DNA of 64,000 nt, from NCBI RefSeq assembly GCF_000021965.1, contig NC_011832.1, positions 2,149,242 through 2,213,241 on the forward strand, written 5' to 3'. Within the stretch, counting starts at the first letter, position 1; every line of letters starts with the position of its first letter. The stretch comes from Methanosphaerula palustris E1-9c (GTDB lineage Archaea > Halobacteriota > Methanomicrobia > Methanomicrobiales > Methanospirillaceae). Under the pieces are notes generated by a model. It was not told the DNA's origin, ran no database searches, and saw only the letters and a list, made by a program, of their open reading frames with translations. Below, piece by piece: positions 5,223 through 22,000 of this stretch. The position numbers and the translations under genes were made by a program.

Positions 5223-8200
5223 GATCCGGCGGGGTCTTGAGATCCTGCTCGCCCCCGGCCAGGTCTTCGAGGTCCGTTCTTGGACCGGCGACCGGATATC
5301 CTCCGGCTACTTCGACGACCTGACCGCCGCCGAAAAGGCGATCGAGGCACTGGACGCCGCCGGCCCTGATGGGATCTACCTGACCCCGAATCCGGTCCTG
5401 CCCGACCTGCTGAGCAGGCGAGCGAATCGGATTAAGGGGCCGCTCGCAAAGAAGGACAGCAGCACCAGCGACGCCGACATCATCGGCCGGCGCTGGCTGC
5501 TCATCGACATCGACCCGGCCCGGCCATCTGGGGTCTCTTCATCCGAGGAAGAGCACGCCGCCGCCCTGACACGAGCCGCAGACATCGCCGCAGCCCTGGG
5601 TGAACGGGGATGGCCGGCCCCGGTGGCGGGCGACTCCGGCAATGGTGCTCACCTCCTCTATCGGCTGGACCTCCCGAACGACGATCAGGTAACAGCACTG
5701 GTTAAGGCCGCCCTGGTGGCCCTCGATGCGCTCTTCTCCGACCCGTTCGCCTCAGTGGACACGGCCGTCTTCAATGCCTCCCGTATCTGGAAGGTATACG
5801 GGACCGTGGCCCGAAAGGGTGACAATACCACGAGCAGACCGCATCGACGGAGCCGGCTGATCTCGGTGCCGAAGACGATCGAGATCGTGACCCGCGAGCA
5901 ACTCGCCGCCCTGGCGATCACCGACCCCGGAGGGGACACCGTGGCGCCGGCTCCTTCAACGAAGGGCACCGGCCGCAAGGCTGGCGAGAAGATCGACCTG
6001 GCCGGCTGGCTCCGGGACCACGGCCTCGGCTTCTCCGATCGCCGGCCCTACCAGGGCGGGGACCTGTACCGGCTCGACACCTGTCCGTTCTCTTCGGCTC
6101 ACACCGATGGTGCGTTCGCGATCCAGTTCGCGAGCGGGGCCGTCTATGCCGGCTGCCATCATGCCTCCTGTGGCGGCGGGTCGCAGCGGTGGCCTGAACT
6201 GCGGGAGATGTTCGAGGGACCTAAGCGGATCCCGGCCGGCCTGGCGAACCATGACGAGAAGGAAGTGGAGTGGCGGAAGAAGAAAGCCGAAGCAAGGGAA
6301 GCGGCGGCCGGCCGGGATGACTCCGAACCGGTTGAAGCCGACGCAGCTGATGAAGTGATCCTGGCAGAGGCCCGGCAGATCCTTGAGCACGGCGACCCGC
6401 TCGCCTACATGGTCGACGCGTTCAACCTGGAGCACGTCGGCGACAGGGATTTAGCGAAATGTCTGGTATTGTCTCTCGCATCCAGGTTAATCGCAAACTC
6501 AAAGGGTCTGCATGTGATGACATCAGGGGACAGTGGAAAGGGGAAGAGCTGCGGATACCAAACAATGTTGGAACAAGTGCCGGCCGCGTTCAAGCTCGAA
6601 GGATCGTTTTCTGATAAATCTCTCTACTACAGCAACGATCTCCGCCCACGGACCGTGTTTTTCATCGACGACAAAGATCTTTCAGAATCCATGCAAGAGG
6701 TATTGAAGGAATCGACTTCCTCGTTTCAAAAACCGATCACTCACCGCACGCTCTCCATCGATCGAAAACTCCAGGTTTGCACAATCCCACAGAATTGTGT
6801 CTGGTGGATCGCGAAGGTGGAAGGGACAGGAGACGACCAGGTTCTCAACCGGGTATTGATGGTCCACGTCAACAACTCAGCCGAACAGGACCAGGCCGTA
6901 CAGCAGGCCGCCATAGAACGAGAATCACGGGACGACCCACCAGGCGAACCACACCAGGTCAAGGCATGCCGGGCCATGTGGATCCACCTGGACGCCGCTG
7001 CTCAAAACCCAGTGGTCGTATCTCTCTCCAGGTTCGCCAGACGGATTGTCTTTTCATCTGCCCGGGATCGGCGGAATACCGAAATTTTCTTCGATCTGAT
7101 CCGGTCCGTAACCCTGATCCGATTCTTTCAACGGGATCGGGAAGAACTGCCAGACGGAACGATCAGAGTATACGCCACCCCGGACGACTTCAGAACCGCG
7201 AACGACGTTTTCAACGCAATTCAAAAAGACTCAGGATCGCAGGGTGCGAAACTCAACCCACGCGAGGCGGGATTGTTAGACGTGATCGACCGGACCGGTC
7301 GAGATGAATTTACCGTACAGGAACTCGCAAGACTCACAAACCTTCCAGACTACACAATCAGGCGAGCGTTTACAGGAATCCCTGGAAGGACAAGCGCGGG
7401 ATTGTTGGAAAAATGCCCGGCCTGCGGGATCCTCGATCGTTCTGTCAGCTCGCCGGACGACACACAGGGATCAGCCCGACGCAATCAAACCGTGTTCACG
7501 TTCGACCGTGGGATCTATGCCATATGGGATCGTGGGTGTCGTGTTCACTTGAAACCGGCCGATGGGGAAGATGACGTTACACCGTTACACAGACATTACA
7601 CAAACGTTACACAACCCTGTGTAAAGGTAACGCCGGCACCAGAGGCGGCGGATACACAAAACAACTCTCTCCTCTCTAGTGTACATAAGAAAGAAGAGAA
7701 CGTTACACAAAAACAGGAGAGTACCCACCCCAGTAACAATAATCGAGAGATCACACCTGGAGGTGTATGTGCTCCACCAGAATGTGTAAAGGTGTCAGGT
7801 CAAAATGTTGAAAGCACACCTGTACCCCCAAATAACAAAACGAGTGACGGAAACGCCGAATCAAACCGTACACAAACAGGTGTACGGTTTGTGTCAAGCA
7901 GTGTAAATGTGCAAAACGCCCCACCCGCCCTTGATCTCGCCCAGGTCCGCGCCGGCGATTACTCCCCGATCGCCGATGGTGCGATCGCCGAGACCTGCCC
8001 GATCTGCTCCGGCCGGCTGGTGCACTATCAGGAAAAATTCACGGCGATGAAGAGCCGGGGCGGGGACCACCCGCGGCGGCTCTGCCGGTCCTGTTACACC
8101 CAGGCGAAGGAGCGAGAGCAGACCGCGGTCCAGGCCCTCCCCGGCGCCATCCCGATCGACGAGGTGAAGCCGATCGCCTCCGGCCTGCTCGGTCGGTGCA

Positions 8201-8307
8201 CGGTCTGCGGGCTGCAGGTCGCGACCTACTCCCATGTCGACAGCGGGACCGCGCTCTGCTCGGTCTGTTATGAGAAACTGGTGAGGGAGCAGGTGGAGAT
8301 CCGGTAG
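5206..8307 (+). CDS. Primase-helicase of a mobile element, 1033 aa
   Basis: A multidomain replication protein. The start at 5206 is chosen for the GGGGAGG just upstream; the open frame extends further 5' into the previous gene. Residues 90-200 carry the archaeo-eukaryotic primase motifs: LIDIDPARP (D101, D103), GNGAH (H149) and VDTAVF (D185). A Cys/His region follows (DTCPF, then GCHHASC, about 292-322). Residues 430-490 hold Walker A GDSGKGKS and Walker B TVFFIDDKD of a helicase-type ATPase. Then come a winged-helix region, a low-complexity linker, and two C-terminal zinc ribbons (CPIC...CRSC and CTVC...CSVC). It probably starts replication of an integrated plasmid or virus. Its 3' end recurs four more times downstream. 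Confidence 0.85.
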   Translation: MDAGSEIRRGLEILLAPGQVFEVRSWTGDRISSGYFDDLTAAEKAIEALDAAGPDGIYLTPNPVLPDLLSRRANRIKGPLAKKDSSTSDADIIGRRWLLIDIDPARPSGVSSSEEEHAAALTRAADIAAALGERGWPAPVAGDSGNGAHLLYRLDLPNDDQVTALVKAALVALDALFSDPFASVDTAVFNASRIWKVYGTVARKGDNTTSRPHRRSRLISVPKTIEIVTREQLAALAITDPGGDTVAPAPSTKGTGRKAGEKIDLAGWLRDHGLGFSDRRPYQGGDLYRLDTCPFSSAHTDGAFAIQFASGAVYAGCHHASCGGGSQRWPELREMFEGPKRIPAGLANHDEKEVEWRKKKAEAREAAAGRDDSEPVEADAADEVILAEARQILEHGDPLAYMVDAFNLEHVGDRDLAKCLVLSLASRLIANSKGLHVMTSGDSGKGKSCGYQTMLEQVPAAFKLEGSFSDKSLYYSNDLRPRTVFFIDDKDLSESMQEVLKESTSSFQKPITHRTLSIDRKLQVCTIPQNCVWWIAKVEGTGDDQVLNRVLMVHVNNSAEQDQAVQQAAIERESRDDPPGEPHQVKACRAMWIHLDAAAQNPVVVSLSRFARRIVFSSARDRRNTEIFFDLIRSVTLIRFFQRDREELPDGTIRVYATPDDFRTANDVFNAIQKDSGSQGAKLNPREAGLLDVIDRTGRDEFTVQELARLTNLPDYTIRRAFTGIPGRTSAGLLEKCPACGILDRSVSSPDDTQGSARRNQTVFTFDRGIYAIWDRGCRVHLKPADGEDDVTPLHRHYTNVTQPCVKVTPAPEAADTQNNSLLSSVHKKEENVTQKQESTHPSNNNREITPGGVCAPPECVKVSGQNVESTPVPPNNKTSDGNAESNRTQTGVRFVSSSVNVQNAPPALDLAQVRAGDYSPIADGAIAETCPICSGRLVHYQEKFTAMKSRGGDHPRRLCRSCYTQAKEREQTAVQALPGAIPIDEVKPIASGLLGRCTVCGLQVATYSHVDSGTALCSVCYEKLVREQVEIR

Positions 8308-8335
8308 GGCCGGCTGTGGGTGAGGTGGAGGCGAT
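7960..8335 (+). repeat. Primase 3' end, reference copy of a recurring segment
   Basis: This segment encodes the last two zinc ribbons of the primase and the first 28 or so bases after its stop (GGGCCGGCTGTGGGTGAGG). Versions of it recur at 8914-8958 plus 9571-9660, 12016-12235, 17840-18025 and 21963-22000. In the first three of these the stop codon and the bases after it are kept as well. Confidence 0.85.
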
Positions 8336-8446
8336 CGCCTGGTCGGGATGTGCCGATGAGCAGGTATCAGCCGGCCCCGCGGTTCACTGTTCCGCAGGCA
8401 GGCATATCCTGATTCCCATTCGGGAGCCGGGAGAGGAGGTAAGAAC

Positions 8447-8794
8447 ATGGATTCAACAAAAACCAGCAAGTATGAGATCAGAGCCATGGAAGCAGAGCAG
8501 AGATTCACGACCGCCGCCACCGATGAGCAGGGAAAACATCTCTTCTGGCTCGGGTACTGGTCTGCACAGAAAAGTTTTGAGGCCGGAACGGGATTCACCT
8601 TGGAGGAATGCGAAACCATGCTTTTTGATCTCGGCACCATCCCTTATGAAACGCCACGGGGATGGCCGTCCACAGAGTTCTGGTTGGGGTATATCGAGGC
8701 CATTTTTGAGGATCGACGAGATGAGGAGGGGACCGGGACCTCGACCGGTATCACAGTCGAGTATGACCTGGGGGAGGATGAAGAGGCGGACTAA
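8447..8794 (+). CDS. Hypothetical protein of the replication module, 115 aa
   Basis: The ATG follows an excellent ribosome binding site (GAGAGGAGG), so this is very likely expressed. The protein is acidic, tryptophan-rich (FWLGYW, FWLGYIEAIF) and has no membrane span. Two short stretches resemble each other, HLFWLGYWSA and TEFWLGYIEA, which hints at an internal duplication of a helical hairpin. It follows the primase by 139 bases. I do not recognise the family. Confidence 0.6.
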   Translation: MDSTKTSKYEIRAMEAEQRFTTAATDEQGKHLFWLGYWSAQKSFEAGTGFTLEECETMLFDLGTIPYETPRGWPSTEFWLGYIEAIFEDRRDEEGTGTSTGITVEYDLGEDEEAD

Positions 8795-8913
8795 AATTCC
8801 CATTCCCCAGGGCGGTTCTACCCTTCCCAGGAAGATCCAACAAAGGTACGACACGTATATGAAAGCGGGTACCGGTTCAACCGACAACCCTATTTTTGTA
8901 TGCGGGCTATCTG
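8778..8913 (+). pseudogene. Possible truncated small gene
   Basis: A frame overlapping the end of the previous gene reads MKRRTKIPIPQGG and continues to about 8905, where the zinc-ribbon remnant starts and the similarity to normal coding sequence stops. The purine-rich site abuts the ATG too closely to be ideal. It may be a short cotranscribed gene cut off by later rearrangement. Confidence 0.25.
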
Positions 8914-8958
8914 ATCGATGCCAGCCTCTTCGGGCGGTGCTCGGTCTGCAGGCTCCAG
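8914..8958 (+). repeat. Primase-tail remnant, left half
   Basis: The sequence reads IDASLFGRCSVCRLQ, matching IDTGLFGRCSVCGLQ of the copy at 17840 and IASGLLGRCTVCGLQ of the intact primase. It stops abruptly. The missing right half resumes at 9571, so about 610 bases now lie inside this copy. Confidence 0.75.
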
Positions 8959-9097
8959 GGGTCGACACACCCACCAGAGATGGAGGGTCGACGGGTGGCC
9001 GTGCTGGATTCGACTTCTCACGCATCGAAGCTTTGTTGATGTCGTCGAGCGGTAATGCAACCTCAATGAACTTCTTTGAAGCCTTGATCTCTGTCAT
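8951..9097 (-). pseudogene. 5' fragment of a DUF1156 gene (defence-type methyltransferase family)
   Basis: On the minus strand an ATG at 9097 opens SKKFIEVALPLDDINKASM, followed by REKS. After a one-base insertion the other frame continues as IQHGHPSTLHLWWVCRPLE. DUF1156 proteins begin in the same way, with an IEVALP opening and then RHGHPSTLHLWWARRPL (recalled from the family). Only the first 50 or so of roughly 900 residues remain, ending inside the primase-tail remnant. DUF1156 proteins are large methyltransferase-like proteins often found in archaeal and bacterial defence islands. This fragment is dead. Confidence 0.75.
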
Positions 9098-9256
9098 GGT
9101 ATTGTCTGTCGTTCCCTGCCTGCCGGTGGATGGAGGTCGACAGATGTGCTGGTCGAACCGGGGGGATAACGGCCGGTTTAGTGCCTGTAATGATGATGAG
9201 GTGTTGAACAAAGGAAAAGTGATCGAAGTGTTCGTGGAGAGACAGAGAATGCAGGG

Positions 9257-9290
9257 AGATACGATAAAATAGGAAGATACAATCGTATCT
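9257..9290. promoter_or_regulatory. Inverted repeat AGATACGAT...ATCGTATCT
   Basis: Two perfect 9-base arms (9257-9265 and 9282-9290) are separated by 16 bases, and a direct copy of AGATAC lies between them. The spacing suits a dimeric DNA-binding protein. It sits upstream of the DUF1156 fragment on the minus strand and may have been that gene's operator. Confidence 0.4.
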
Positions 9291-9358
9291 GATATTCAAT
9301 TTCAGTACCTGGGCCGATAGTTGGGGAGGTTCACCTGGGATCTGATGGTAAAACCAGA

Positions 9359-9395
9359 ATTAGTCCTAATTAGTACCTAATTAGTAACAATTAGT
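9359..9395. repeat. Four phased ATTAGT repeats
   Basis: ATTAGT occurs at 9359, 9369, 9380 and 9390, at steps of 10, 11 and 10 bases, so all four face the same side of the helix. The surrounding DNA is AT-rich. This resembles iterons or a cooperative operator. The stretch 9098-9570 holds no gene. Confidence 0.5.
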
Positions 9396-9570
9396 TACAA
9401 GCGCAAGATGGGGAAAAGTCACGAATCGCAGGCAGACTGAGAATTAAACAGAAATTTTCCATTTTCACCCCTACGACAATTGTTCAACATTTGTAGTACA
9501 TACAAATTGATATTCAGGCCCTCCAAGGTATCATCGAAGCCACTTGAGTACATGTTGGTGGGCAATCCCT

Positions 9571-9660
9571 GCCGGCAGCGGGACGGCGATCTGCTCGGTC
9601 CGTTATGAGAAGTTGATGAGGGAACAGGTGGAGATTAGGTAGGGCCGACTGTGGTTGAAT
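9571..9660 (+). repeat. Primase-tail remnant, right half
   Basis: The sequence reads GSGTAICSVRYEKLMREQVE up to a TAG at 9640-9642, then GGGCCGACTGTGG, as after the intact primase stop. One zinc-ribbon cysteine has become arginine (CSVR for CSVC). It completes the half-copy that ends at 8958. Confidence 0.75.
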
Positions 9661-9737
9661 CTCCGCTGGGATACCGGTCCCGACTGGTTGTTGTACACGA
9701 ACAGTCCTTCATCGAATCCAAACCACGATGAGGATTA

Positions 9738-10013
9738 TTATCTGAGTTGAAACTCCTCCTTCATCTCCCGAATCTGCGCCGCCAGGGGGGGATAATCCCC
9801 CTTCCTCGCAAGGGAAAGCGCATCGTCGATCACGCGGGACGCCTCCATGCGCCGGCCCTGTTGCGCGAAGATGATCACCTGATTCGCGAGCGAGGGCGCC
9901 AATCCTTCGATGTTCCCGAGTTCTCGGCAGATCCAAATATTTGTTGAATCAGTCAGAGCTGCATCACGAGAAGGCATGTTCCGCGAAGTACAGATGAAAT
10001 TCAGGGGATCCAA
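9738..10013 (-). pseudogene. C-terminal fragment of a TPR protein
   Basis: The minus-strand frame contains ICRELGNIEGLAPSLANQ followed by a second helix pair ending DDALSLARKGDYPP, the pattern of tetratricopeptide repeats common in methanogen TPR proteins. Only about one and a half repeats remain. The first 30 residues of the open frame do not look like TPR, so the gene has lost its 5' end. Confidence 0.5.
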
Positions 10014-10144
10014 TATCCTTCTGGCAATGGCTCAGTGAACGAGCAAGACAGGAGATCGGAGTGAATGGATCTCATGACGGGATTATGCAACAGAGCACCA
10101 TTTTAAAAAAACTATAAATACTGTTAACCGTAAATATCAACAAG

Positions 10145-10244
10145 TCGATATCGATTAAACGATATCTACCACTTGATATGATTTGGACATATACAGAAGT
10201 AAAATTCGTTACAGATTCGTATCAAATCGTCGATATGATATCGA
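10145..10244. promoter_or_regulatory. Two palindromic operators before the padR-type gene
   Basis: TCGATATCGA (10145-10154) and the perfect 15-base palindrome TCGATATGATATCGA (10230-10244) share the core TCGATAT. The second ends 28 bases before the regulator's ATG, where it would block transcription. A TATA-like ACTATAAATA lies at 10111-10120. Extra half-sites ATATCAA (10134) and TTGATAT (10173) flank the first palindrome. Autoregulation by the PadR-type protein is the simplest reading. Confidence 0.6.
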
Positions 10245-10272
10245 TTTGACGATAAATTAAGGAGTTTGAAAA

Positions 10273-10848
10273 ATGAACGGCAAATGGCCTCACCATGATG
10301 AGAGAATCCATGAGATGATCTGGGGATTCCGTGACAGAATGATGATGATGGAAAACTTCGGCGGCCTGAGAAGCTGGATCCTCTTTGCACTCAAGGATGG
10401 GCCAAAAAATGGAGTGGAGATCATGAACTCAATTCAGGATATACGGCGGATTCCCCACGCATTCCATGACCACCAGCCGGGATCCCCTTTTCCAGGTCGG
10501 CCCACTAATGAGGGTGAAGAATCCGGTATGTGGCGCCCGTCACCCGGTTCGATCTACCCCATGCTGAACAAAATGACCAACAAGAATCTTATCTTAAAAA
10601 TGGAGGACAAACGATACGAAATGACACAGACCGGTCAAGAGACATTTTCCCGGATATTTGGATCCGTATCACCTGGTGCAAATCCGGAGAGCAGGAGATA
10701 TGACGTTGACAATGTACTCACAGAGATGAACGGTTCTGCATCGTATTTAGGGGATATTGCAAAAGAGAAACTGATCCCTCAGGAAGCAATAATCGATGAA
10801 ATCATCCAGAAACTGACACAAGTTAAAGAATCGCTCCACCAGCAATAA
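10273..10848 (+). CDS. PadR-family transcriptional regulator, 191 aa
   Basis: A cytoplasmic winged-helix repressor. The DNA-binding part is visible as RSWILFALKDGPKNGVEIMN near residues 36-55 and PSPGSIYPMLNKMTNKNLI near 87-105, both standard PadR signatures. A basic wing (EDKRYEMTQTGQ) follows, then a C-terminal helical dimerisation region of about 70 residues. The histidine- and proline-rich loop between the helices is longer than usual. AAGGAG precedes the ATG. Palindromic operators lie directly upstream. The methyltransferase gene 140 bases downstream may be part of its regulon. Confidence 0.85.
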   Translation: MNGKWPHHDERIHEMIWGFRDRMMMMENFGGLRSWILFALKDGPKNGVEIMNSIQDIRRIPHAFHDHQPGSPFPGRPTNEGEESGMWRPSPGSIYPMLNKMTNKNLILKMEDKRYEMTQTGQETFSRIFGSVSPGANPESRRYDVDNVLTEMNGSASYLGDIAKEKLIPQEAIIDEIIQKLTQVKESLHQQ

Positions 10849-10987
10849 AATTCAGACGACAGGATTCTGGTGCGTTGTCGGGATGTTTACATAATGAACA
10901 TTGATGATTCACGACGATATCATGTTCTTTAAGTCCCGTTAATGCACCAGCACCGAAAATCATAATTTTTATAGTGAGGATATGAAG

Positions 10988-11581: not shown

Positions 11582-12015
11582 AACATTAGCTCTACTGAGT
11601 CTGCTGTATAACCACTATGCATTGACTCCCCCTTCTCCTCTAACGCGGTCAAATATAGCCGTCCGCATCCCGCCTGGCGCCGGAGCAGCGCGACAAGTCA
11701 GGGGCGTCATCCTATCACAATAGGGCAACCTCAAAAAACAGCAAGGTGATGTGAAGCGAGCCGGAATGCAGTGAGCGCAAGCGGACGGAATGAGAACGAG
11801 TGAACATGACCGAGCGTCTTTATACCAACCGGACACGATGGCTCCCACCCTCGGTATGGTGGGTGGGACTCCAGAGGGGCGGTCCGGAGGATAATTTCCC
11901 GCAGATCGCCGGCTCTTCCATCCCTCTCCCGACGGTACTTCCTCACGGTCCATGCATCCGTTGTCTCACCAATCGTCAGCCACTGGAAGGGGTTGGCGGA
12001 CGGAACGGCCCGGGT
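11582..12015. other. Gene-free stretch between the methyltransferase and the third primase tail
   Basis: No gene is recognised. A hairpin CCCACC...GGTGGG lies near 11849-11868. The right end merges into the primase-tail copy. Open frames on both strands have scrambled composition. Confidence 0.3.
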
Positions 12016-12235
12016 CCGTGAGCAGGCCGCCGTCCAGGTCCTGCCCGGTGCGATCCCGATCGACGAGGTGAAGCCGATCGCCTCCGGCCTGCTCGGCCGG
12101 TGCTCGGTCTGCGGGCTGCAGGTCGCGACCTACTCCCATGCCGACAGCGGGACGGCGATCTGCTCCAGGTGTTATGAGAAACTGGTGCGGGAGCAGGTGG
12201 AGATCCGGTAGGGCCGGCTGTGGGTGAGGATGGGT
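12016..12235 (+). repeat. Primase-tail copy, single complete zinc ribbon
   Basis: From about 12016 the DNA reads REQAAVQVLPGAIPIDEVKP and on through CSVCGLQVATYSHADSG to the stop at 12211, nearly identical to the intact primase end. The bases after the stop (GGGCCGGCTGTGGGTGAGG) are also kept. Upstream of 12016 the match is lost. An open frame begins at 11993, but no start signal or upstream domain supports a separate gene. Confidence 0.8.
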
Positions 12236-12348
12236 TCACCGTGAATCCATCCATGACACAGGGCACCTCCCTGATCGAGTTCACCTGAAAGGATCCGCCC
12301 TGCATCATCTGATCGGGGTTTATATCCCGGCAGGAGATAGTCTTCATC

Positions 12349-12591
12349 ATGACACGCTGGCTCTGCAGGGCTGATCGCACGAACGCCGCGATCGTCAAGG
12401 AACGCCTCGTCCGGGGCGTGCCGGCCCTCTCATTCATCAAGAGCATGGTCATGTGGTCGGGTTCCATCCTCTCAACGACCGGTCCGAGCGCCGTGGAACT
12501 CACCGGACCATCAGTCCGGCTTGAGAAGTCGCTTCAGACCTGCTGGGAGCAGAACCAGGGGTATCTGAAGGCGCTCGGGGACGGGGTGTGA
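12349..12591 (+). pseudogene. EVE-domain gene with an internal deletion
   Basis: The first 25 or so residues (TRWLCRADRTNAAIVKERLV) match the EVE-domain gene at 18141, then the frame jumps to PALSFIK and MVMWSGSI near that gene's end. The junction is GTGCCGGC, which occurs in the longer gene at both 18210 and 18468. A 258-base in-frame deletion between these 8-base repeats explains the structure. The last 35 residues are unrelated. Without its middle the EVE fold cannot form. Confidence 0.8.
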
Positions 12592-12592
12592 C

Positions 12593-13657
12593 GTGAGCGA
12601 GGAGATGAGGGAGCCGGCCGGAGGTTTGTCCGAGTTTCTTCTCTACCAGACCGAAGGGGGCGAGACCCGTGTCCAGGTCAGCCTGTTCGAGGGGACGGTC
12701 TGGCTGACGCAGCGGTTGATCGCCGAGTTGTATCAGAAATCGATCAAGACAATCAACGAGCATATCAAAAACATCTACGAGGAGCGGGAACTCGACCCCC
12801 AAGCAACTATCCGGAAATTCCGGATAGTTCAACTGGAGGGTGACCGCCAGGTCGAGCGTCTGGTGGACTTCTACAACCTCGATATGATCCTTGCCGTGGG
12901 CTACCGGGTGCGGTCGCACAGGGGGACCCAATTTCGACAGTGGGCGACGAAGCAACTGCGGGAATATGTGGTGAAGGGTTTTGTCCTGGACGATGAGCGC
13001 CTGAAGGAGGCCGGCGGGATCGGGAGGGACTACTTCGACGAACTTCTGGAGCGGATCCGTGACATCAGGGCGTCGGAGAGGCGGTTCTACCAGAAGATTA
13101 CTGATATCTATGCGACGAGCGTCGACTATGATCCGAAAGACCCGATGACACTTGAGTTCTTCAAGACGGTACAGAACAAGATGCACTGGGCGATCCACGG
13201 GCATACGGCGGCTGAGACGATATTCCTCCGGGCTGATGCGAGGAAGCCGCACATGGGGCTGACGACCTGGAAACAGGGGCCGAAAGGGCGGATCCACAAG
13301 ACCGATGTGGGGGTTGCGAAGAACTACCTGACCAGGGAAGAGATCTCAAACCTGAACCTGATCGTGAACCAGTATCTCGACTTCGCTGAGTTTCAGGCCC
13401 GCCAGCGCCGGGAGATGAGGATGGAGGACTGGATCAGGAAACTGGATGGTTTTATTCAGTTGAATGACCGGAACGTTCTCAAAAACGCCGGGAGTATTTC
13501 GGCAGAAAGGGCGAAGCAGAAGGCGCAGAAGGAGTTTGAGGGGTCTGAAGCGCAGCGCCGTATCAAGGAGGCGAGCGAGCCGACAAGCGACTTCGACCTG
13601 ATGGTCGACGAGGTTACGTATCTCTCCAAGAAGCAGGAGGACGAAGATGAAGTCTGA
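12593..13657 (+). CDS. RhuM-family protein, 354 aa
   Basis: This is a member of the RhuM (virulence protein) family, cytoplasmic proteins of unknown activity found in genomic islands. Visible hallmarks are an N-terminal region with VSLFEGTVWLTQRLIAELYQ, then KTINEHIKNIYEERELDP and a central FRQWATKQLREYVVKGFVLDD. The C-terminal part includes QNKMHWAIHGHTAAE, with charged helices after it. The length is typical. It starts with GTG two bases after the preceding frame ends, with GGGGTG as ribosome site. Its last bases overlap a SIR2/DUF1016 fusion remnant. Confidence 0.85.
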   Translation: MSEEMREPAGGLSEFLLYQTEGGETRVQVSLFEGTVWLTQRLIAELYQKSIKTINEHIKNIYEERELDPQATIRKFRIVQLEGDRQVERLVDFYNLDMILAVGYRVRSHRGTQFRQWATKQLREYVVKGFVLDDERLKEAGGIGRDYFDELLERIRDIRASERRFYQKITDIYATSVDYDPKDPMTLEFFKTVQNKMHWAIHGHTAAETIFLRADARKPHMGLTTWKQGPKGRIHKTDVGVAKNYLTREEISNLNLIVNQYLDFAEFQARQRREMRMEDWIRKLDGFIQLNDRNVLKNAGSISAERAKQKAQKEFEGSEAQRRIKEASEPTSDFDLMVDEVTYLSKKQEDEDEV

Positions 13658-13874: not shown

Positions 13875-13918
13875 CATAGGACGGGGTTCGGGCGACGGTT
13901 GGTTATGGGGTGTGAGTG

Positions 13919-15274: not shown

Positions 15275-15790
15275 ATGGAAAAAACCGCACTCCCATCTTC
15301 TACTGCCGAGAGTCACGATTATCAAAGCCTCCTCGCCGATCTCAAAACCCGGGTCCGCTCAGCCCAGGTCAAGGCCGCACTCTCGGTCAACCACGAACTG
15401 ATCCAGCTCTACTGGGAGATCGGCCGATCGATCCTCGCCGCCCAGGACCGGGAAGGGTGGGGGACGAAGGTGATCGACCGGCTGGCCGGCGATCTCCGCC
15501 ATGAGTTCCCGGAGATGAAGGGGTTCTCGCCCCGGAATCTGAAATATATGCGCCGGCTCGCCGAGGCCTGGCCCGACCCCTCAATTGTGCCACAGCCAGT
15601 GGCACAAATTCCGTGGGGCCACAACTGCATCCTGCTCGATAAGATTGGCGAGCCGGCACTGCGTGAATACTATAGTCGAAAACCTGATAATAATCAGGTT
15701 TTCTCGAAATCCGGTTCTCCCGTAAGGGAGAAACGGATCGCTGAGAGAAGGGAACTCGTAGTAAAACAAAAAGAAAAGACGGGGTTCTGA
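15275..15790 (+). pseudogene. DUF1016 (YhcG-type) nuclease, N-terminal half only
   Basis: The N-terminal domain is clear: ALSVNHELIQLYWEIGRSI, GWGTKVIDRLAGDL and FSPRNLKYMRRLAEAWP, then PWGHNCILLDK. Full family members are about 350 residues and carry a PD-(D/E)XK nuclease domain at the C-terminus. This one leaves the family after EPALREYYS and ends at residue 171 in a basic unrelated tail, so the nuclease is missing. It may still be translated as a binding domain. It abuts the HEPN gene. Confidence 0.75.
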
Positions 15791-15843: not shown

Positions 15844-15849
15844 ACCAGG

Positions 15850-16026
15850 TCAGATCCACCGGAGATGATCGATCGTGACCAGGGCGGCCAGGACGATCGC
15901 TGAGAGGATGACCACCTCGAGAGGGACGATCGGGGCCAGCCAGTCCCGCTCAAGTTCCCAGACCGCAGGACCAAGCATGACAATGTTGACCAGAACGACG
16001 ATACGGATGAGGGAAACGTCTTGCAT
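15850..16026 (-). CDS. Possible two-span membrane protein, 58 aa
   Basis: The minus-strand frame starts MQDVSLIRIVVLVNIVMLG and has a second span VPLEVVILSAIVLAALVTI before ending in HLRWI. The two hydrophobic segments joined by a charged loop look like a genuine membrane hairpin. No strong ribosome site is seen, and coding-like pieces continue upstream in shifted frames to about 16330. It may therefore be the tail of a decayed larger gene. Confidence 0.35.
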   Translation of the reverse strand: MQDVSLIRIVVLVNIVMLGPAVWELERDWLAPIVPLEVVILSAIVLAALVTIDHLRWI

Positions 16027-16392
16027 GTCGAAATGATCGCCGCCCTGAAGATGAGTATTTCGATACGATTCCGCCGGACGGCAACCTGTACGCCATCAGA
16101 GACACCCCAGCCGGCACCCCTGACTCTCCATCCCGGCCAGTTCAGCCAAGACCGACACACTCCCAATCCCGTCGTCGACCTCAAACCAGGGGGGATCACC
16201 TCGCTCGACGCAGCCGTCGCGAACCACGTCCACGTCGACCATATCGGTGGCTCCCTGGTGGTCCTCTCGAGGAACTTCAATGCAGTGAAACTCCATCCAG
16301 CGTGTCCACTCCGATGGAGCGGCGAATCCTCATGATAGATCGGGTCAGGTATCATTCCAGATCCCACACCTTCTGCCAGAACCCCCGGTTTC

Positions 16393-16428
16393 ATTTACTT
16401 CAAACTTTAAGTAAATAAAAAAGTAAAT
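16393..16428 (+). promoter_or_regulatory. Operator-promoter of the winged-helix/MazF cassette
   Basis: ATTTACTT (16393-16400) is inverted as AAGTAAAT (16409-16416), which is repeated directly at 16421-16428. The block is the only AT-rich stretch here and also supplies a TATA-like AAATAAAAAA. It lies about 45 bases before the first gene of the cassette, a natural place for autoregulation by that gene's winged-helix product. Confidence 0.55.
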
Positions 16429-16470
16429 ATGTCGGGCTGCCAATCATGATGAAAAGGAGGGAACCAGAAG

Positions 16471-16797
16471 ATGCAGGATGATATCCTCTCCATCTTAAAT
16501 GAATCCGAAGCGCTCAATGCGAAAGTCTTCTCGCTCGTCCGGCTGAAACTGCTCGCGAGCCTTGCAGCCCTCGGACGCGACGGGGCGACCTACCGTGAAC
16601 TCAAGGCGGCGCTCACAATTAATGACGGTGTTCTGTTTGCGAACCTCAATGTCCTCAAAGACATGGGGTATCTCACGTCAGAGAAGATCACCTCGGATGG
16701 GAAAGAACTCGAACTCTATACCATCACGCCCAACGGACAGGACGAATGGAAGCGAGTGAAAACCTGGCTGTGCAGGTTCCTCGGCTGTGGAGCATGA
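16471..16797 (+). CDS. Winged-helix transcriptional regulator, 108 aa
   Basis: A small ArsR/MarR-like DNA-binding protein. The helix-turn-helix is visible as LVRLKLLASLAALGRDGATY, then ELKAALTINDGVLFANLNVL, followed by a wing (SDGKELELYTITPNG) and a last helix. AAAGGAGGG lies 9 bases before the ATG. Its stop overlaps the next start as ATGA, so the antitoxin-like gene is translationally coupled. Palindromic AAGTAAAT repeats upstream suggest it controls the cassette. Confidence 0.75.
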   Translation: MQDDILSILNESEALNAKVFSLVRLKLLASLAALGRDGATYRELKAALTINDGVLFANLNVLKDMGYLTSEKITSDGKELELYTITPNGQDEWKRVKTWLCRFLGCGA

Positions 16798-17330
16798 CGA
16801 TGGAAAGACGGAAAAAAGTAATTGCCTTCTTCAGGGAACTGGGCTTTGCGATCGATATCTCACAGTTCGATGACCGGCTCATCGCCCAGAAACTCGTATG
16901 CCTGCTTGAACTCAGGGGTATCGATCTCGGATATCCCTGTAACATTCACGTGCGGGGACCGTATTCCCCGCCCCTGGCGGACGATCTGTTCGACTTCACG
17001 AACGAGTTCAGGAATCTGGAAACCGATCTTCAGCTCAAGCCAGCAGAGAAAGAGGCAGCACGCGACCTCGGCAGGATCTTCGGTCTCAAGCCGGTGCCTC
17101 TCGAAATCGGGGCAACGTATGGGTATTATACCAGGTGGCAGAAGAACGATCCGCTCGAAGCCCTCCGGCGGCTCAAACGACTCAAGCCGTTCTATTCAGA
17201 GACCCAGATTGCCCTCGGCATCTCCAAAGCAAATGAGTTTCTCTTCAGGCCCACTCCCGGCGACCTGGAAGAACTGAGCGAGGAGACCGGCATCTGGCAG
17301 CGGGCTTCATTAAAAACATGGGAGTCCTGA
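16794..17330 (+). CDS. YwgA/Panacea-like putative antitoxin, 178 aa
   Basis: The protein resembles the YwgA/Panacea type of antitoxin-associated proteins: QFDDRLIAQKLVCLLELRGI, then GYPCNIHVRGPYSPPLADDL, and a helical C-terminal half ending near ISKANEFLF. Start 16794 overlaps the regulator's stop; a second ATG lies at 16800. It sits directly before a MazF-type toxin gene, three bases apart, in the usual antitoxin-first order. Neutralisation of MazF is inferred from position. The family match is from memory and is moderate. Confidence 0.6.
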   Translation: MTMERRKKVIAFFRELGFAIDISQFDDRLIAQKLVCLLELRGIDLGYPCNIHVRGPYSPPLADDLFDFTNEFRNLETDLQLKPAEKEAARDLGRIFGLKPVPLEIGATYGYYTRWQKNDPLEALRRLKRLKPFYSETQIALGISKANEFLFRPTPGDLEELSEETGIWQRASLKTWES

Positions 17331-17333
17331 TCG

Positions 17334-17660
17334 ATGACGAGGGGCGATATCTGGCTTGTCGATCTCACCGACGCAAAAGGGCATGAGCAGCGAGGAACCC
17401 GTCCTGCAATTGTTGTGGGAGGTGCCAATGGCCTCACCCTCGTCGTCCCGCTGACCAGCACGATGAGCAGTGCCAGGTTCTCGCATACCTGTATCATCTC
17501 CCCGACCCGGCACAACGGCCTCGATGTCGATAGTGTCGCTCTCGTATTTCAGATCGTTGCTCTGGACAGGGCCCGATTCAGGCACCGAATCGGAGCCGTC
17601 GGTGAACCGCATCGGCTGGCAATCGTGGCCCTTATCCGCGACCTTCTGGGACTGGATTAA
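17334..17660 (+). CDS. MazF/PemK-family endoribonuclease toxin, 108 aa
   Basis: The family core is clear: RGDIWLVDLTDAKGHEQRGT, then RPAIVVGGANG and VVPLTSTM, with length typical of MazF. Members cut mRNA at short sequence motifs and stop growth. GGGAGTCC upstream acts as ribosome site. It closes a three-gene cassette with a winged-helix regulator and a YwgA-like protein, so the antitoxin is not the usual MazE type. Confidence 0.85.
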   Translation: MTRGDIWLVDLTDAKGHEQRGTRPAIVVGGANGLTLVVPLTSTMSSARFSHTCIISPTRHNGLDVDSVALVFQIVALDRARFRHRIGAVGEPHRLAIVALIRDLLGLD

Positions 17661-17675
17661 TATTTTCTGACCCAA

Positions 17676-17839
17676 TTGGCCGCTTCCATAGCAACGACAT
17701 CCACCCTCACAACACAGTCGACAAACACCGACACCTCGGCCCCGGTCTCTGTCTTCTCCACGCCAGCGTTGACGTACCATTGGAGGCATGGCAACGGCCG
17801 GTACCATCCGATCTCTGTGCTTAACGTGAGCCAGAGAGG
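17676..17839 (+). pseudogene. Lipoprotein remnant, first copy
   Basis: This segment reads TNTDTSAPVSVFSTPALTY and, after compensating frameshifts, TIGGMATAGTI and VLNVSQRGS. It matches the remnant at 21754-21962 (TNSDTSAPISVISTPATTY, TLGGTTAGTL, VLNVGQEGS). The signal peptide is lost here. It is fused at GGATCC to a primase-tail copy, exactly as in the other remnant. Confidence 0.6.
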
Positions 17840-18025
17840 ATCCCGCTCGACGAGGTCATACCGATCGATACCGGCCTCTTCGGGCGGTGCTCGGTCTGCG
17901 GGCTTCAGGTTGCGGGGTATCTGCTTGCCGGCAGCGGGACGGCGATCTGCTCGGTCTGTTATGAGAAACTAGTGAGGGAGCAGGTGGATATTCGGTAGGG
18001 CCGGCTGTGGTTGAGGTGGAGGATT
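17840..18025 (+). repeat. Primase-tail copy before the intact EVE gene
   Basis: The frame reads IPLDEVIPIDTGLFGRCSVC and on to CSVCYEKLVREQVDIR, stop at 17998, then GGGCCGGCTGTGG. The region between this copy and the EVE gene is similar to the region between the 12 kb copy and its EVE remnant, so tail and EVE were duplicated together. Confidence 0.8.
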
Positions 18026-18140
18026 AGTTTACCGATAAGTAGTCCTGTGACATGAAGCACTTCCAAGATCGAGTTCAACGGAGGAGATTATCGGAATTAT
18101 CTGATAGGGTTTGATATTCTTGCAGGAGAGAATGTTCTTC

Positions 18141-18584
18141 ATGACACGCTGGCTCTGCATGGCCGATCGCACGAACGCCGCTATCGTAAAAGAGCGCCTC
18201 GTCTGGGGTGTGCCGGCTCGGTACCGGAATACAATCGGCAGGGTACATCCCGGCGACACGCTCCTGATCTATGCCCGGCAGGAGCACGCCGCCGGCGAGA
18301 CCCTCCCCTCCATCGTCATGGCCGCCTATGATGTCGTCTCCCCGGTCTTCGAGGACACAGAGCCCATCTTCACGGCGCCGGCCTTTCTCCCTGGCGAGGT
18401 CTTCCCAATGCGAGTGAAGGTAAAACCCCTGCCGGATATCAGCGAGCCGGTCCCGTTCAAACCACTCGTGCCGGCCCTCTCATTCATCAAGAACAAGGTC
18501 ATGTGGTCGGGATCCATCCGAGCCATGCGGACGATCCCGGAAGAGGATTATCAGCGGATCGTCGCCGGGGGCAAAGGAAACTGA
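18141..18584 (+). CDS. EVE-domain protein, 147 aa
   Basis: EVE (PUA-like) proteins bind modified bases in DNA or RNA and often accompany defence nucleases. Here the opening TRWLCMADRTNAAIVKERLV, the central HPGDTLLIYARQEH, and the closing PLVPALSFIKNKVMWSG are all typical. I take ATG 18141 because the decayed copy at 12349 aligns from the same codon; ATG 18132 is also possible. GCAGGAGAG lies upstream. It stands alone, without a nuclease partner, just before the TIGR04255 operon. Confidence 0.8.
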   Translation: MTRWLCMADRTNAAIVKERLVWGVPARYRNTIGRVHPGDTLLIYARQEHAAGETLPSIVMAAYDVVSPVFEDTEPIFTAPAFLPGEVFPMRVKVKPLPDISEPVPFKPLVPALSFIKNKVMWSGSIRAMRTIPEEDYQRIVAGGKGN

Positions 18585-18698
18585 TGTGCACACGGAACCG
18601 GGAGAATGGAGTAAAGAGCCGTATCACATCGAGATCGGTGTATCCATATACTATGAATACTCATATCCGAGTGCGAGTCTTAAGAACCAAATACATCC

Positions 18699-18720
18699 AA
18701 TAATATATGAACTTGTGATC
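18699..18720 (+). promoter_or_regulatory. Likely TATA box of the TIGR04255 operon
   Basis: AATAATATATG around 18699-18709 lies so close to the ATG at 18721 that the transcript would begin at or next to it. No ribosome site is seen, which fits a leaderless mRNA. Confidence 0.4.
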
Positions 18721-19458
18721 ATGACCCAGTACAGTTCTCCACCAGTCGTTGAGGTGGTCTGTGAATTTCGTTTCTCTTCGAAGACAGAGTGGAACGACAC
18801 CCTCGCAGATCGTTTTCACAAGGCTGTTCAAGAGACCTTTCCCGAGCGTGACCGGATTGTAGAGCACCAATTCGAATTCGAGGTCACTCCGGATAAATCC
18901 CAATCGAAGAACGGCAAGAGGGAACGACCGGTCTTTCTGACCCAAAACCGGCGAATGTTCATACAATTCGGAGAGCGGATCGTCTCAATCCATTGTTTGA
19001 AACCGTATCCGTCCTGGGAAAAGTTCCGGCCGATCATTGAACAGGTCTACGGAGCACTTTCTAAGGTGACCGAGATCAAAGGGGTCGACCGGATCGGCTT
19101 ACTCTATGTCGACAAGATCGAGATCCCGGGAACCGAGATCGATCTCACAGAATACTTTGGGTTCAGACCGGTCATTAAGGGATATAAACCAGAATCATTT
19201 GTGAACTTCCTGGTGGGTGTCGATCTTCCGTTTTCCGGGCAACGAGATCTCTGCCGACTTCAGTTGATGCGGGCTGTAGCAGAAAGAGAGGGCTATAGTG
19301 CCTTTTTGCTGACCACTGATTACTTCCTCCGAAATCAGGAGGGAATCCTTCCCGATGAGGTTCTGACCTGGCTTGAAGAGGCCCACGCCACGATAAGAAA
19401 TATCTTCCTCAATTGTATCACCGGTAAACTCGAGAAGATCTTCAACGGAGAAGTCTGA
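18721..19458 (+). CDS. TIGR04255-family protein, 245 aa
   Basis: The family is widespread but sporadic and has no known function. The start at 18721 gives the usual opening YSSPPVVEVVCEFRF. GKRERPVFLTQNRRMFIQFG and VDRIGLLYVDKIEI in the middle are typical, and the C-terminus ends in a helical EEAHATIRNIF segment. The open frame reaches back to 18586, but that part is AT-rich promoter-like DNA. No signal peptide or membrane span is present. It is the first gene of a tight three-gene operon with an unknown protein and a HEPN-like protein. Confidence 0.75.
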   Translation: MTQYSSPPVVEVVCEFRFSSKTEWNDTLADRFHKAVQETFPERDRIVEHQFEFEVTPDKSQSKNGKRERPVFLTQNRRMFIQFGERIVSIHCLKPYPSWEKFRPIIEQVYGALSKVTEIKGVDRIGLLYVDKIEIPGTEIDLTEYFGFRPVIKGYKPESFVNFLVGVDLPFSGQRDLCRLQLMRAVAEREGYSAFLLTTDYFLRNQEGILPDEVLTWLEEAHATIRNIFLNCITGKLEKIFNGEV

Positions 19459-19459
19459 T

Positions 19460-20005
19460 ATGTTAAATTCATCTATGACGCCGTTTTCGACAGTTATCCC
19501 ATGCTCGCACCCGGCAAGATCTGGCTGGAATGATTCCCCTGCTTCCTTAATAGATAGGGCTATTAATTGGCTCTTTGGTGGTACTTCGATTGATAAGCAT
19601 TCCATTGTCTCAGAACAATCCTATGATATACGTAACGCAACTGCAAGTGATAATTCATTAATCGAGCCCTTACTCTTCGCGCTTTTCGAGAACCAGAAGT
19701 TCAATCTGATACAGTCTGGAGATGTAGTGGGGTATTTGCAACGATATCTGGGGATGTATTGGCCCTTGATAGTAGCGTGCCATCTGATCTCCAAGGAGTT
19801 TCAGAACGAAGGAACCTTCTCACTGGAGGTCTACCACGACCCCGAGGGGCATGATGAATACCTCATGCTGACGGTGCGGCAGTACCACTACACGGACGAC
19901 CTGCTTGGTCGTATCGAGAGGGTGAGCGATCTGGTTCGGCCATTTCTACAAGGAGAGTCCGGCTGGCTCCTGATTACTACCGATTTTCAATCCGTCGGGA
20001 TATAA
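19460..20005 (+). CDS. Hypothetical partner of the TIGR04255 protein, 181 aa
   Basis: I do not recognise a named family. The C-terminal half looks ordered: FSLEVYHDPEGHDEYLMLTV, then DDLLGRIERVSDLVRPFL and SGWLLITTDF. The first 60 residues look loosely structured. It starts one base after the TIGR04255 stop, and its stop overlaps the HEPN start as TAATG, so all three products are probably made together and may form a complex. Confidence 0.6.
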   Translation: MLNSSMTPFSTVIPCSHPARSGWNDSPASLIDRAINWLFGGTSIDKHSIVSEQSYDIRNATASDNSLIEPLLFALFENQKFNLIQSGDVVGYLQRYLGMYWPLIVACHLISKEFQNEGTFSLEVYHDPEGHDEYLMLTVRQYHYTDDLLGRIERVSDLVRPFLQGESGWLLITTDFQSVGI

Positions 20006-20391
20006 TGCAGAAAATCTTCTCCTGGGAACAGTTTATTGATATCGCCCAATTCCTTGTGCAGGAAACCAAAAAACTGGACAGTGCCATTCCAGATGAGGCC
20101 GCGTACAGATGCGCCATCAGCCGGTCCTATTATGCCGCCTTCTGTTGTGCTCTTGAATTTGCAGAGGATGAGCTCGGTTACAATTCAGAAAGAGCAGGAA
20201 CAGACCATACCAAATTGCGGAATTTTATGAAAGTACAAAAAGATGATACCATGGTAAAGATTGCAGGAAAACTCGATCAGTTACGAGGCTGGAGAAATAC
20301 AAGCGATTACAATGCGCTGAAAAATATCCCATTAATAATGGCTGAAAATGCCATTCTTCAAGCACAAGAGATTGTAAAACTCACACGATGA
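20005..20391 (+). CDS. HEPN-like domain protein, 128 aa
   Basis: An all-helical HEPN-type protein: EAAYRCAISRSYYAAFCCAL forms the first helix pair and LDQLRGWRNTSDYN the conserved late helix. The arginine-containing motif ends in SDY and lacks the histidine of active RxxxxH HEPN nucleases. It may therefore be a binding or regulatory HEPN, like those paired with nucleotidyltransferases. No nucleotidyltransferase gene is adjacent. Its start overlaps the previous stop. Confidence 0.65.
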   Translation: MQKIFSWEQFIDIAQFLVQETKKLDSAIPDEAAYRCAISRSYYAAFCCALEFAEDELGYNSERAGTDHTKLRNFMKVQKDDTMVKIAGKLDQLRGWRNTSDYNALKNIPLIMAENAILQAQEIVKLTR

Positions 20392-20400
20392 TCTTTTTTA

Positions 20401-20492
20401 GGCTTTGCTGAAACCTTCAAACACACATATATACATTCTCTCCATCAATATGAGTCGCAGAGTCGTGAATTTTGAAGGGTTTCAATAAAGAC
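20401..20492. mobile_element. MITE-like palindromic element, left copy
   Basis: The ends are inverted: GGCTTTGCTGAAACC plus TTCAAA (20401-20421) against TTTGAAGGGTTTCAATAAAG (20471-20490). A close relative lies at 21516-21611. The pair brackets one AT-rich gene. The arms look like transposon ends, and no transposase is encoded. Confidence 0.6.
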
Positions 20493-20537
20493 GAAACAAT
20501 AATAAAGTTGAAATTCCCGAACGACATTGGTTGATTT

Positions 20538-21464
20538 ATGCCTCCAAAAGTGCTTCGAGATTTTATCTATCTTGATGTTGAGAGATTAAAATCGATAATT
20601 GCCCAAATCGAGGGAGGTGTGATAAATACTCAGCAAGACTCTCGGCAGGAGAGTGATGAGCTCACAGCAAGTGTTGAAGGGGGGATATTGGGCTTTCTTC
20701 GAGGAGTGGTTGGAGGTAAGTATCTTCTGGAGAATCAGGAGACATCTACCAAGACATTGCATGATGATATTTTCAATAAAGTTGAGCAATTTTTAATTAA
20801 TACTGAATATCTAGTAAGGATTCCCGATGATTATGATATCAAAAGTGACAATGTTAATTTGAGAGAAGACCTAACCGACAATTGGTTTGTTCTGATTAAT
20901 GGAAGGGTTAATATTAATGATTATAATCGGATGAGAGATTCATTAAGTAATTATAATAATCTTGCAACTCTTATCTCGCAATTTTCAATTGACGCACAAA
21001 AACCAGCACTGACAAAAAAAGATAAAGTTAAAAAAATGGGGGAGATAAAAAGAGAACTAGCTCAAAACGAAGAATCTATTAAGGGGCTGACACTGTTTTT
21101 TGATATTTTTTATAAGAATAGAATCGTCATAAAAATATTTCCGTATGAAGGAAATAGTAAAATTAGATTTTCAGGAAATATTAATCCCGTTTATCTGAGA
21201 GAAGATATCGCGAGTATTATCTACAAGTATGGGACAGCTCCAACCTCAAATTGGCAAATATTTGCCCAAATCGCTTCAATCCCTCCTGCTGATCGCTCGA
21301 ATCTATCCCCTGAAATTGATGAGGATACACTTGAGGCAAAATTACATTCAATATTCAACGTGTTTCGAGGTATCGAAGTGCTTACAGAATCTGTAGTCTA
21401 CCCAGAAATTGCTATCACACCCATCGCAATCTACAGAGAAGTATCCATTAGGACAAAAAAATAA
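20538..21464 (+). CDS. DUF6414-like protein, 308 aa
   Basis: The opening RDFIYLDVERLKSIIAQIEG resembles DUF6414-type proteins, whose function is unknown. The middle has a conserved-looking NWFVLINGRVNINDYNRM and a lysine-rich helix. No signal peptide or membrane span is seen, apart from a glycine-rich LGFLRGVVGGK stretch near residue 55. The gene is strikingly AT-rich compared with everything around it, and MITE-like palindromes flank it at both ends. Recent transfer as a cassette is likely. The family call is from memory and moderate. Confidence 0.55.
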   Translation: MPPKVLRDFIYLDVERLKSIIAQIEGGVINTQQDSRQESDELTASVEGGILGFLRGVVGGKYLLENQETSTKTLHDDIFNKVEQFLINTEYLVRIPDDYDIKSDNVNLREDLTDNWFVLINGRVNINDYNRMRDSLSNYNNLATLISQFSIDAQKPALTKKDKVKKMGEIKRELAQNEESIKGLTLFFDIFYKNRIVIKIFPYEGNSKIRFSGNINPVYLREDIASIIYKYGTAPTSNWQIFAQIASIPPADRSNLSPEIDEDTLEAKLHSIFNVFRGIEVLTESVVYPEIAITPIAIYREVSIRTKK

Positions 21465-21515
21465 TAATAATTTTCGATAATTAATGAAGTCGTTGATATC
21501 GATATTTGAATAATT

Positions 21516-21611
21516 GGCTCTGTTGAAACCCCTTAAATAATACACCCTGTACCCTCTTCTATATCAATACAGTCAGCAGATTTTTGTATTTTGAAGGATT
21601 TTTACAAAGCC
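21516..21611. mobile_element. MITE-like palindromic element, right copy
   Basis: The left arm is GGCTCTGTTGAAACCCCTTA (21516-21535); the right arm (about 21588-21611) reads on the other strand as GGCTTTGTAAAAATCCTTCA. The size, arms and interior motif (ATCAATA...GTCAGCAGA, compared with ATCAATA...GTCGCAGA) match the copy at 20401-20492. Confidence 0.6.
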
Positions 21612-21753
21612 CCATTCAACTCATTCACAACGATAAATCTCCTTTTCCTCTAATTTAGGGTATCGTTCTTGGCATATCTGTACATCCCTGATTTTTTCAC
21701 CATCACAAACAAAAAGAAGCCTTGAAATCATCCTGCGAAAGAACATACCCTCC

Positions 21754-21962
21754 ATGCGAAGTCCCTGGTTCTCCTCAGCCTCTTACTCTGTGGCCTCCTG
21801 ATAGCCGGCTGCACTTCTTCAACGACGACAAAGGCGACAAACTCCGACACCTCCGCCCCGATCTCCGTCATCTCCACACCGGCAACGACCTACACCCTCG
21901 GAGGCACGACGGCTGGCACCCTCCGGGTCTCTGTCCTGAACGTTGGCCAGGAAGGATCCTGA
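21754..21962 (+). pseudogene. Lipoprotein remnant with lipobox, second copy
   Basis: A one-base loss after ATGCG puts the start out of frame. Corrected, it reads KSLVLLSLLLCGLLIAGC, a lipoprotein signal with lipobox IAGC, then a threonine-rich linker and ISVISTPATTYTLGG. It ends at VLNVGQEGS with a stop inside GGATCCTGA. The C-terminal domain is missing. A shorter relative lies at 17676-17839. Confidence 0.65.
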
Positions 21963-22000
21963 TCGAGCCATGCCCTGTCTGTGCCGGTCGGGTGGTACAT
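21963..22000 (+). repeat. Primase first-zinc-ribbon scrap
   Basis: IEPCPVCAGRVVH matches AETCPICSGRLVH of the intact primase. Most differences are at third codon positions, so it diverged while still coding. It follows the lipoprotein remnant directly. The rest of 22001-22132 holds no gene. Confidence 0.5.

Follow-up and report, generated by a model that had tools for sequence, protein, structure and literature searches.

Small elements built around a primase gene of the arCOG07809 family are the closest described relatives of the locus treated here. Mpal_2033 and the arCOG07809 family have been reported as putative integrated elements, possibly satellite viruses, whose arCOG07809 gene unites primase, helicase, helix-turn-helix (HTH) and zinc-finger domains in one protein (PMC4158269, Makarova et al. 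2014). An HJR-family endonuclease has been reported beside this gene, as have integrases and integration sites for some members, with tRNA targets described (PMC4158269). Section 10 of that article makes no mention of tail relics, right-end arrays or passenger arrays, and a literature search on arCOG07809 and Mpal_2033 returned no other account, subscription papers lying mostly outside its scope. Among small mobile elements, hotspots of P2 phages and P4 satellites carry antiviral systems (PMC9122126). The DNA analysed here, hereafter the window, is a stretch of 64,000 nucleotides of the methane-producing archaeon Methanosphaerula palustris E1-9c (positions 2149242-2213241 of NC_011832.1, the single contig, 2,922,917 bp long, of the home genome). 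It holds the same kind of primase-helicase-HTH-zinc gene as the arCOG07809 elements (PMC4158269), very probably Mpal_2033 itself, and, to its right, decaying copies of that gene's 3' end.

A preliminary description of this stretch had reported an intact zinc-ribbon tail ending at 8307 and four decaying copies over 14 kb, and had proposed that related elements arrived serially at a hot spot and were eroded. The intact tail and all four copies were found again by DNA match. The repeat appears to be the trace of several arrivals at a single place and not a novel type of gene, and we lean towards a reading in which related elements arrive serially at the right end of a resident element, the old body being lost and the old end kept. 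The insertion spot is the element's own right end, which moves with the element. What stands of the proposal is that several related elements left the same end, given shared right ends, synonymous divergence in excess of nonsynonymous divergence (dS > dN) and relics in three other genera. A fixed chromosomal hot spot with site-specific insertion is not supported: no tRNA gene abuts a primase in the 28 stretches scanned, and no tyrosine integrase lies at the four home loci.

In the following, W is the window locus, with its tails W8.3, W12 and W18; X, Y and Z are the other home loci; L-numbers denote loci, mostly in relatives; and genera are numbered, the home genus being g1. Signed positions are relative to the primase stop. 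The element and its tail copies in the window are:

4276-4753, plus strand: left region of the element, common to copy X (89%) and partly to Y and Z.
4833-5222, plus strand: open reading frame (ORF) of 129 aa directly before the primase, without Pfam or PHROG match; its endonuclease label is borrowed from PMC4158269.
5203-8307, plus strand: intact primase-helicase gene with two zinc ribbons at its end; the ORF is open from 5017, and homologues begin near 5203.
7936-8325, plus strand: intact zinc-ribbon tail, the right end of the element (-372 to +18).
8913-8970, plus strand: first part of a tail copy (-135 to -78).
9567-9658, plus strand: second part of a tail copy, with the stop codon (-75 to +16).
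12007-12229, plus strand: tail copy, 92% identical to the intact tail from 12017, with an open 72-aa frame.
17840-18022, plus strand: tail copy, 84% identical to the intact tail, keeping the stop and extending to +24.
21958-22029, plus strand: piece of the first zinc ribbon (-327 to -260), 82% identical to copies Y and Z (E ~1e-12).

The best match pairs 8113-8325 with 12017-12229 (92%, E 3e-84), followed by 8149 onward with 17840-18022 (84%, E 1e-51), 8232 onward with 9567-9658 (85%, E 6e-23), and 8913-8959 with 17863-17909 (91%, E 4e-12). As 8913-8970 and 9567-9658 cover adjoining tail stretches, they are one split copy. The 607 bp separating them are single copy, with no other match in the genome; a mobile insert was considered as the cause of the split and set aside, as the sequence is single copy and clear end repeats are absent. 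The piece at 21958-22029 does not match the intact window tail at the threshold used, and ends short of the stop; it is preceded by 21825-21966, which is 76% identical to 17709-17850. In the other three copies (9567, 12017 and 17840), the stop is preserved along with the next 16-24 bases, in agreement with the roughly 20 bases first reported, and none of the four was found to hold a primase or helicase domain, also as described.

By DNA, the tail is present at 8 places in four home loci, W and three others. X (1.423 Mb) has an intact primase with 68% protein identity to that of the window, Y (2.745 Mb) is decayed, and Z (0.394 Mb) has a primase with one TAG, located only upstream of the conserved part. 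Two more home tails, at 893820 and 1511989, were added by protein profile; both consist of a tail plus Dam-gene sequence of genus g12 type (77-79% over 616-735 bp; L093, L113). The tail is conserved among copies, whereas the linker preceding it diverges, and its eight cysteines are invariant in 20 of 20 aligned sequences.

The junctions are uneven. Right ends in the home genome lie at +15 to +24 after the stop: W, X and Y are alike up to +15 to +23 beyond it, and Z only to the stop. The three copies of genome G072 are alike as far as a point between -10 and +2. In all these loci, the right end of the element is thus marked by the primase stop. Left breaks vary (-363, -204, -202, -192, -159 and -126); a fixed left break at -363, as in L117 and L145, was rejected because other copies break elsewhere. 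Of the two breakpoints that the preliminary description proposed to compare, several right ends are thus shared, and the left breaks differ. The tail of X is joined directly to a TPR-gene flank, which in W and Y is preceded by a second, remnant tail. This flank (9659-9934 in the window) follows the primase directly in X (77%) and the second tail in Y (71%). The L117 copy ends with its small gene. The start of a Dam gene overlaps the primase stop in L089, L109 and L093, and lies 1.95 and 2.73 kb away in L091 and L106, where GmrSD_N and DUF4062 genes separate the two.

The recurrence was surveyed over 64 primase loci in 35 genomes, comprising 60 relative loci (34 genomes), taken among the matches listed and favouring long matches far from contig ends, and the four home loci. 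Each usable locus served as a query against all 64, matches within -5500 to +420 being dropped. The tail recurs at 10 places (63 queries), all direct and downstream, in L090, L117, L128, W and Y; five of the 10 are in W, and one L128 place is only 35 nt long. No recurrence was obtained for the N-terminal segment or the first helicase segment (62 queries each), nor for the second helicase segment or the linker (63 each). As mean column identity is 62% for the N-terminal segment versus 37% for the tail, the N-terminal zero is not explained by poor detection. The flank at 1-400 beyond the stop recurs at 25 places (63 queries), 23 of them direct and all downstream. Eight of these, in six g13 loci, correspond to the small gene, and the rest to passengers (Dam, TPR, YhcG), local repeats or unassigned sequence; for the passengers, the matching sequence adjoins the primase in another locus. 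The 'downstream' rule rests partly on a search imbalance, since the self-comparison covered 733 kb downstream versus 159 kb upstream, and a narrower exclusion gave two upstream places (L092 and Z), both flank sequence.

By our assignment, 10 of the 64 loci carry right-end relics, which are present in three genera besides the home genus: the tail in W, Y, L090 and L128, the tail with the next gene in L117, and the next gene in L082, L083, L086, L118 and L132. The primase of genus g13 is followed by a gene of about 105-130 aa (13 sequences aligned). What recurs there is this next gene, in many cases just its end, and in L117 the tail recurs with it. As the tail recurs in some loci and the next gene in g13, the recurring thing is best taken to be the element's right end. 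The alternative first offered, in which the zinc tail is itself a moving module, is weakened for the same reason, since the gene after the primase recurs in g13.

The copies also differ as genes would. dS exceeds dN in all 15 pairs compared, over short alignments of 23-121 codons and with no significance test. For example, dN/dS values are.056/.197 for W8.3-W12,.15/.41 for W8.3-W18,.039/.237 for the L117 tail pair and.14/1.17 for the L090 pair. Where a pair includes an orphan tail, the ratio is 0.12-0.36, close to the 0.10-0.33 found between intact copies. In plain codon counts, W8.3-W18 shows 9 synonymous against 13 other differences, so synonymous changes are not always the majority. In L117, the two copies share 91.7% identity, against 90.2 and 91.4% when they are compared with another species' copy. 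A tree of the home tails groups W8.3, W12 and X (89/93), with no branch at the full-support mark and the rest unresolved. The excess of dS over dN in every pair fits separate arrivals, and copies that were separate working genes rather than local duplicates.

These observations can be joined in a scheme of element turnover. An incoming related element would join at the right end of the resident. Recombination at the primase 3' end would let the incoming DNA supply a complete 3' end, and an exchange within the primase body would replace the old body, while the other junction would fall within the old tail, leaving a relic with a variable left break. The outcome would be an intact primase at the left, with new passengers, often defence-like or toxin genes, to its right. 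The relic itself would comprise the terminal 60-370 bases of the primase gene, together with either a short flank or the gene that follows.

Orphan tails were counted by protein profile in 17 genomes, which gave 58 N-terminal matches and 82 tail matches, the latter reduced to 77 on merging. An N-terminal partner is lacking for 27 tails, and a tail for 8 N-terminal matches. The 27 include two at contig starts, copy Y and one half of a split gene; the 8 include two running off contig starts, the other half of the split gene and one match of 32 residues. Twenty regions were viewed: 14 tail places in 12 loci keep about 160 residues or fewer by best match (in L159, a weaker match reaches 295 residues), and six loci keep more or are split genes (L147, L148, L149, L151, L152 and L156). 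In-frame stops are present in 10 of the 27 and absent from 17 (by hand count, several not being tail-only). One orphan tail sits at the same chromosomal place in two species, beside similar upstream genes (L154 in G077, L157 in G084). Two more of the 8 N-terminal matches, L163 and L164, from different genera, keep only the N-terminal third of the primase, their matches ending at nearly the same residue.

Several results weigh against serial arrival at the right end. No pair of near-identical strains before and after an arrival was seen, and neither a recombinase nor a core site was found. Some copies stop short of the right end (L128 at -60, L083 at +208, the 21958 piece at -260), and the displaced Dam genes of L091 and L106 come without a tail relic. 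The left region recurs too, at 9 places (59 queries; 7 direct, 8 downstream). Most loci (54 of 64) are without a right-end relic, and a single locus accounts for half of the tail places. Scattered tails had been named beforehand as an argument against a link to this locus, and, in the 17 genomes, 23 of the 27 orphan tails are indeed not within 10 kb downstream of an intact primase, while 4 are. Two orphan tails of L161 lie upstream of an intact primase, one of them inverted.

What lies between the end copies bears on the alternatives. A TIR gene was found there in L117; an AAA gene and a HEPN gene paired with a nucleotidyltransferase in L118; Schlafen AlbA_2 and weakly SIR2-like genes in L132; and a YhcG nuclease in L128. 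Passengers were picked by eye for two scans of ten proteins each, nine being common to both; in the defence-library scan, 8 of 10 match, some to general ATPase models. In L128, the single YhcG gene fills the gap from the intact primase (-13) to a tail fragment (+1029), which begins 5 nt after the gene's stop. In L118, end pieces of 42-65 nt separate the HEPN-nucleotidyltransferase pair, the AAA gene and what by eye resembles an Mrr gene. In L090, the edge of a three-gene unit (+1792) abuts the second tail (+1797). The corresponding unit and other features between the window copies are:

9659-9934, minus strand: fragment interpreted as the 3' part of a TPR gene (weak Pfam match, E 0.05).
12263-12469, plus strand: remnant of an EVE-domain gene, internally deleted, 79-94% identical to 18057-18519.
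12593-13657, plus strand: RhuM-family gene (PF13310, Pfam match).
15275-15790, plus strand: truncated DUF1016/YhcG gene, a relative of which abuts the primase stop in L128 (79% DNA identity, 243 nt).
16381-17666, plus strand: three-gene unit with genes at 16471-16797 and 16746-17330 and a PemK toxin gene at 17334-17660.
18111-18584, plus strand: EVE-domain gene (PF01878, Pfam match) after the 17840 tail.

The three-gene unit is 80% identical over 1297 nt to that between the two tails of L090, in opposite orientation, and a tail adjoins both; the PemK match was made in the window copy only, not in L090. As it is found in both orientations, this unit may move on its own.

Such neat joints would be expected of integron-like cassettes, that is, of passengers that carry a primase tail as attachment site and insert at the resident tail, building primase-tail-passenger-tail arrays. 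The flush YhcG gene of L128, the unit edge abutting a tail in L090 and the short end pieces between the L118 passengers speak for them, L128 and L118 fitting well, and no relics of the primase body lie outside elements in the loci. Nevertheless, left breaks vary by hundreds of bases, with no fixed site, no tyrosine integrase lies at the home loci, the tails stem from several lineages and the three-gene unit takes both orientations, so that cassettes appear unlikely. A related version, in which the primase 3' end is the recombination site of an integron-like system and the inserting units are defence passengers that bear the end of a primase or of the small gene, each insertion restoring an intact primase and arrays building up downstream, seems slightly less likely again. 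It is improbable that full elements simply eroded at defence islands and that the tail is the part seen most because selection preserves it as a stand-alone zinc-ribbon gene: the 17 orphan tails without in-frame stops and the tail shared by L154 and L157 agree with it, but 10 of the 27 carry stops, and in L082 a piece of the end of the next gene recurs in another frame. Tandem duplication of one primase end on the spot, with later decay of the copies, would account for the direct orientation, the downstream clustering and the 92% identity of W8.3 and W12. It is disfavoured by dS > dN in every pair and by the lineage distances, since the L117 copies are about as distant from each other as from another species' copy, and passengers differ between copies; it is rated a shade lower than erosion, as quite improbable.

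Serial site-specific integration at a fixed attachment site has, in our view, the least chance of being right. Right ends are shared in the home genome, integrases are reported for some arCOG07809 elements elsewhere (PMC4158269), and the 8-base sequence GGGCCGGC is present at the right ends of W, X and Y and recurs in the same orientation farther left, at distances of about 4.0, 5.1 and 1.5 kb, its 22 copies in the window comparing with 3.65 expected. The left GGGCCGGC of W sits exactly at the left junction, but X and Y stay alike further left than theirs, and Z has none at its right end. Because, among about 2000 random 61-mers drawn per locus, 25-52% have at least one 8-mer in common with the left region, GGGCCGGC is no evidence by itself; as an attachment core, it occurs at several ends, not above chance, and remains a candidate. 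No target duplication above chance was found, GGGCCGGC being the only sequence checked and no dedicated search having been made. It was also noted at the end of the intact tail and of copies 12017 and 17840. tRNA genes were found in 4 of 28 stretches scanned (L011, L015, L016 and L093), none abutting a primase, and the window has none. The home genome has four PF00589 tyrosine-integrase matches, none at the four home loci, other recombinase families and relatives not being searched. Tyrosine-integrase insertion at a tRNA gene, thus, has no support from the tRNA scan or the PF00589 matches. Serial arrival of related elements at the right end of a resident is the reading we retain.

Outside the tail, the element is less well delimited. 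Apart from the zinc ribbons, the primase protein gave only weak Pfam matches below cut-off (MarR_2 0.028, AAA_22 0.06) and a weak PHROG match (0.0027), its primase and P-loop motifs being read by eye. A small ORF ahead of the primase is also found in several other copies, and a further left-region piece (4189-4284) is common to the window and X; the true left end is not fixed, because X and Y stay alike further left. Matches to the primase are present in 80 of 108 genomes of the family. A search of a general genome-contig collection for related loci gave no relative, and the 2 phage records and 1 plasmid record retrieved match about one third of the protein.

Some features were noted in passing. 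In the primase linker, at about -800 to -390, X, Y, L089, L106, L127 and L128 have inverted-repeat arms 256-289 nt apart (start to start) at similar positions; such repeats score at least 20 in 14 of 63 loci versus 4 of 63 for a control segment, several being low-identity self-matches. In L144, the primase linker contains intragenic copies that are offset by about 195 nt and 92-94% identical. Directly after the element end in L172 (genome G079, contig C23, 978-1892) lies a unit of about 0.9 kb bounded by perfect 32-bp inverted repeats, each hairpin-capable by eye; a corresponding unit starts at 5379 in L142, and none is at the same place in G084 (L157). In the window, 11674-11895 matches L137 and L113 several times each, and L105 and L091 once each (70-84%), perhaps as a shared repeat family, and the minus-strand ORF at 55-558 resembles by eye ORFs of about 170 aa near the primases of L075, L078, L080, L081, L082 and L090, in either orientation.

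Read as serial arrivals, an odd repeat becomes a readable record of element turnover. It suggests where small archaeal primase elements gain and drop defence-like genes, and orphan right ends would offer a simple marker for such passenger sites in other genomes.

Integrons have a tyrosine integrase beside the array and a short, defined recombination site between cassettes. The present loci resemble them in that passengers are separated by same-orientation repeats downstream of a fixed gene, and differ in that no integrase lies at the home loci (relatives were not searched), while the repeats are gene-end fragments, about 42-726 nt long, whose left breaks vary. Elements that integrate into a gene's 3' end and restore that end are well known for tRNA genes. 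The likeness here is that an intact gene is followed downstream by displaced 3' ends pointing the same way; unlike the tRNA type, the target would be the element's own primase gene, and the attachment core is only a candidate. With the arCOG07809 elements, the difference is that the integrases of some members (PMC4158269) were not found at the home loci. P4-type hotspots have conserved flanking genes with exchangeable defence genes between them; here, variable genes follow the primase. The likeness to the P2/P4 hotspots (PMC9122126) would lie in a single site, on a small mobile element, at which the defence genes vary. In contrast to P2/P4 (PMC9122126), the host here is archaeal, and the ends of old elements remain between the passengers.

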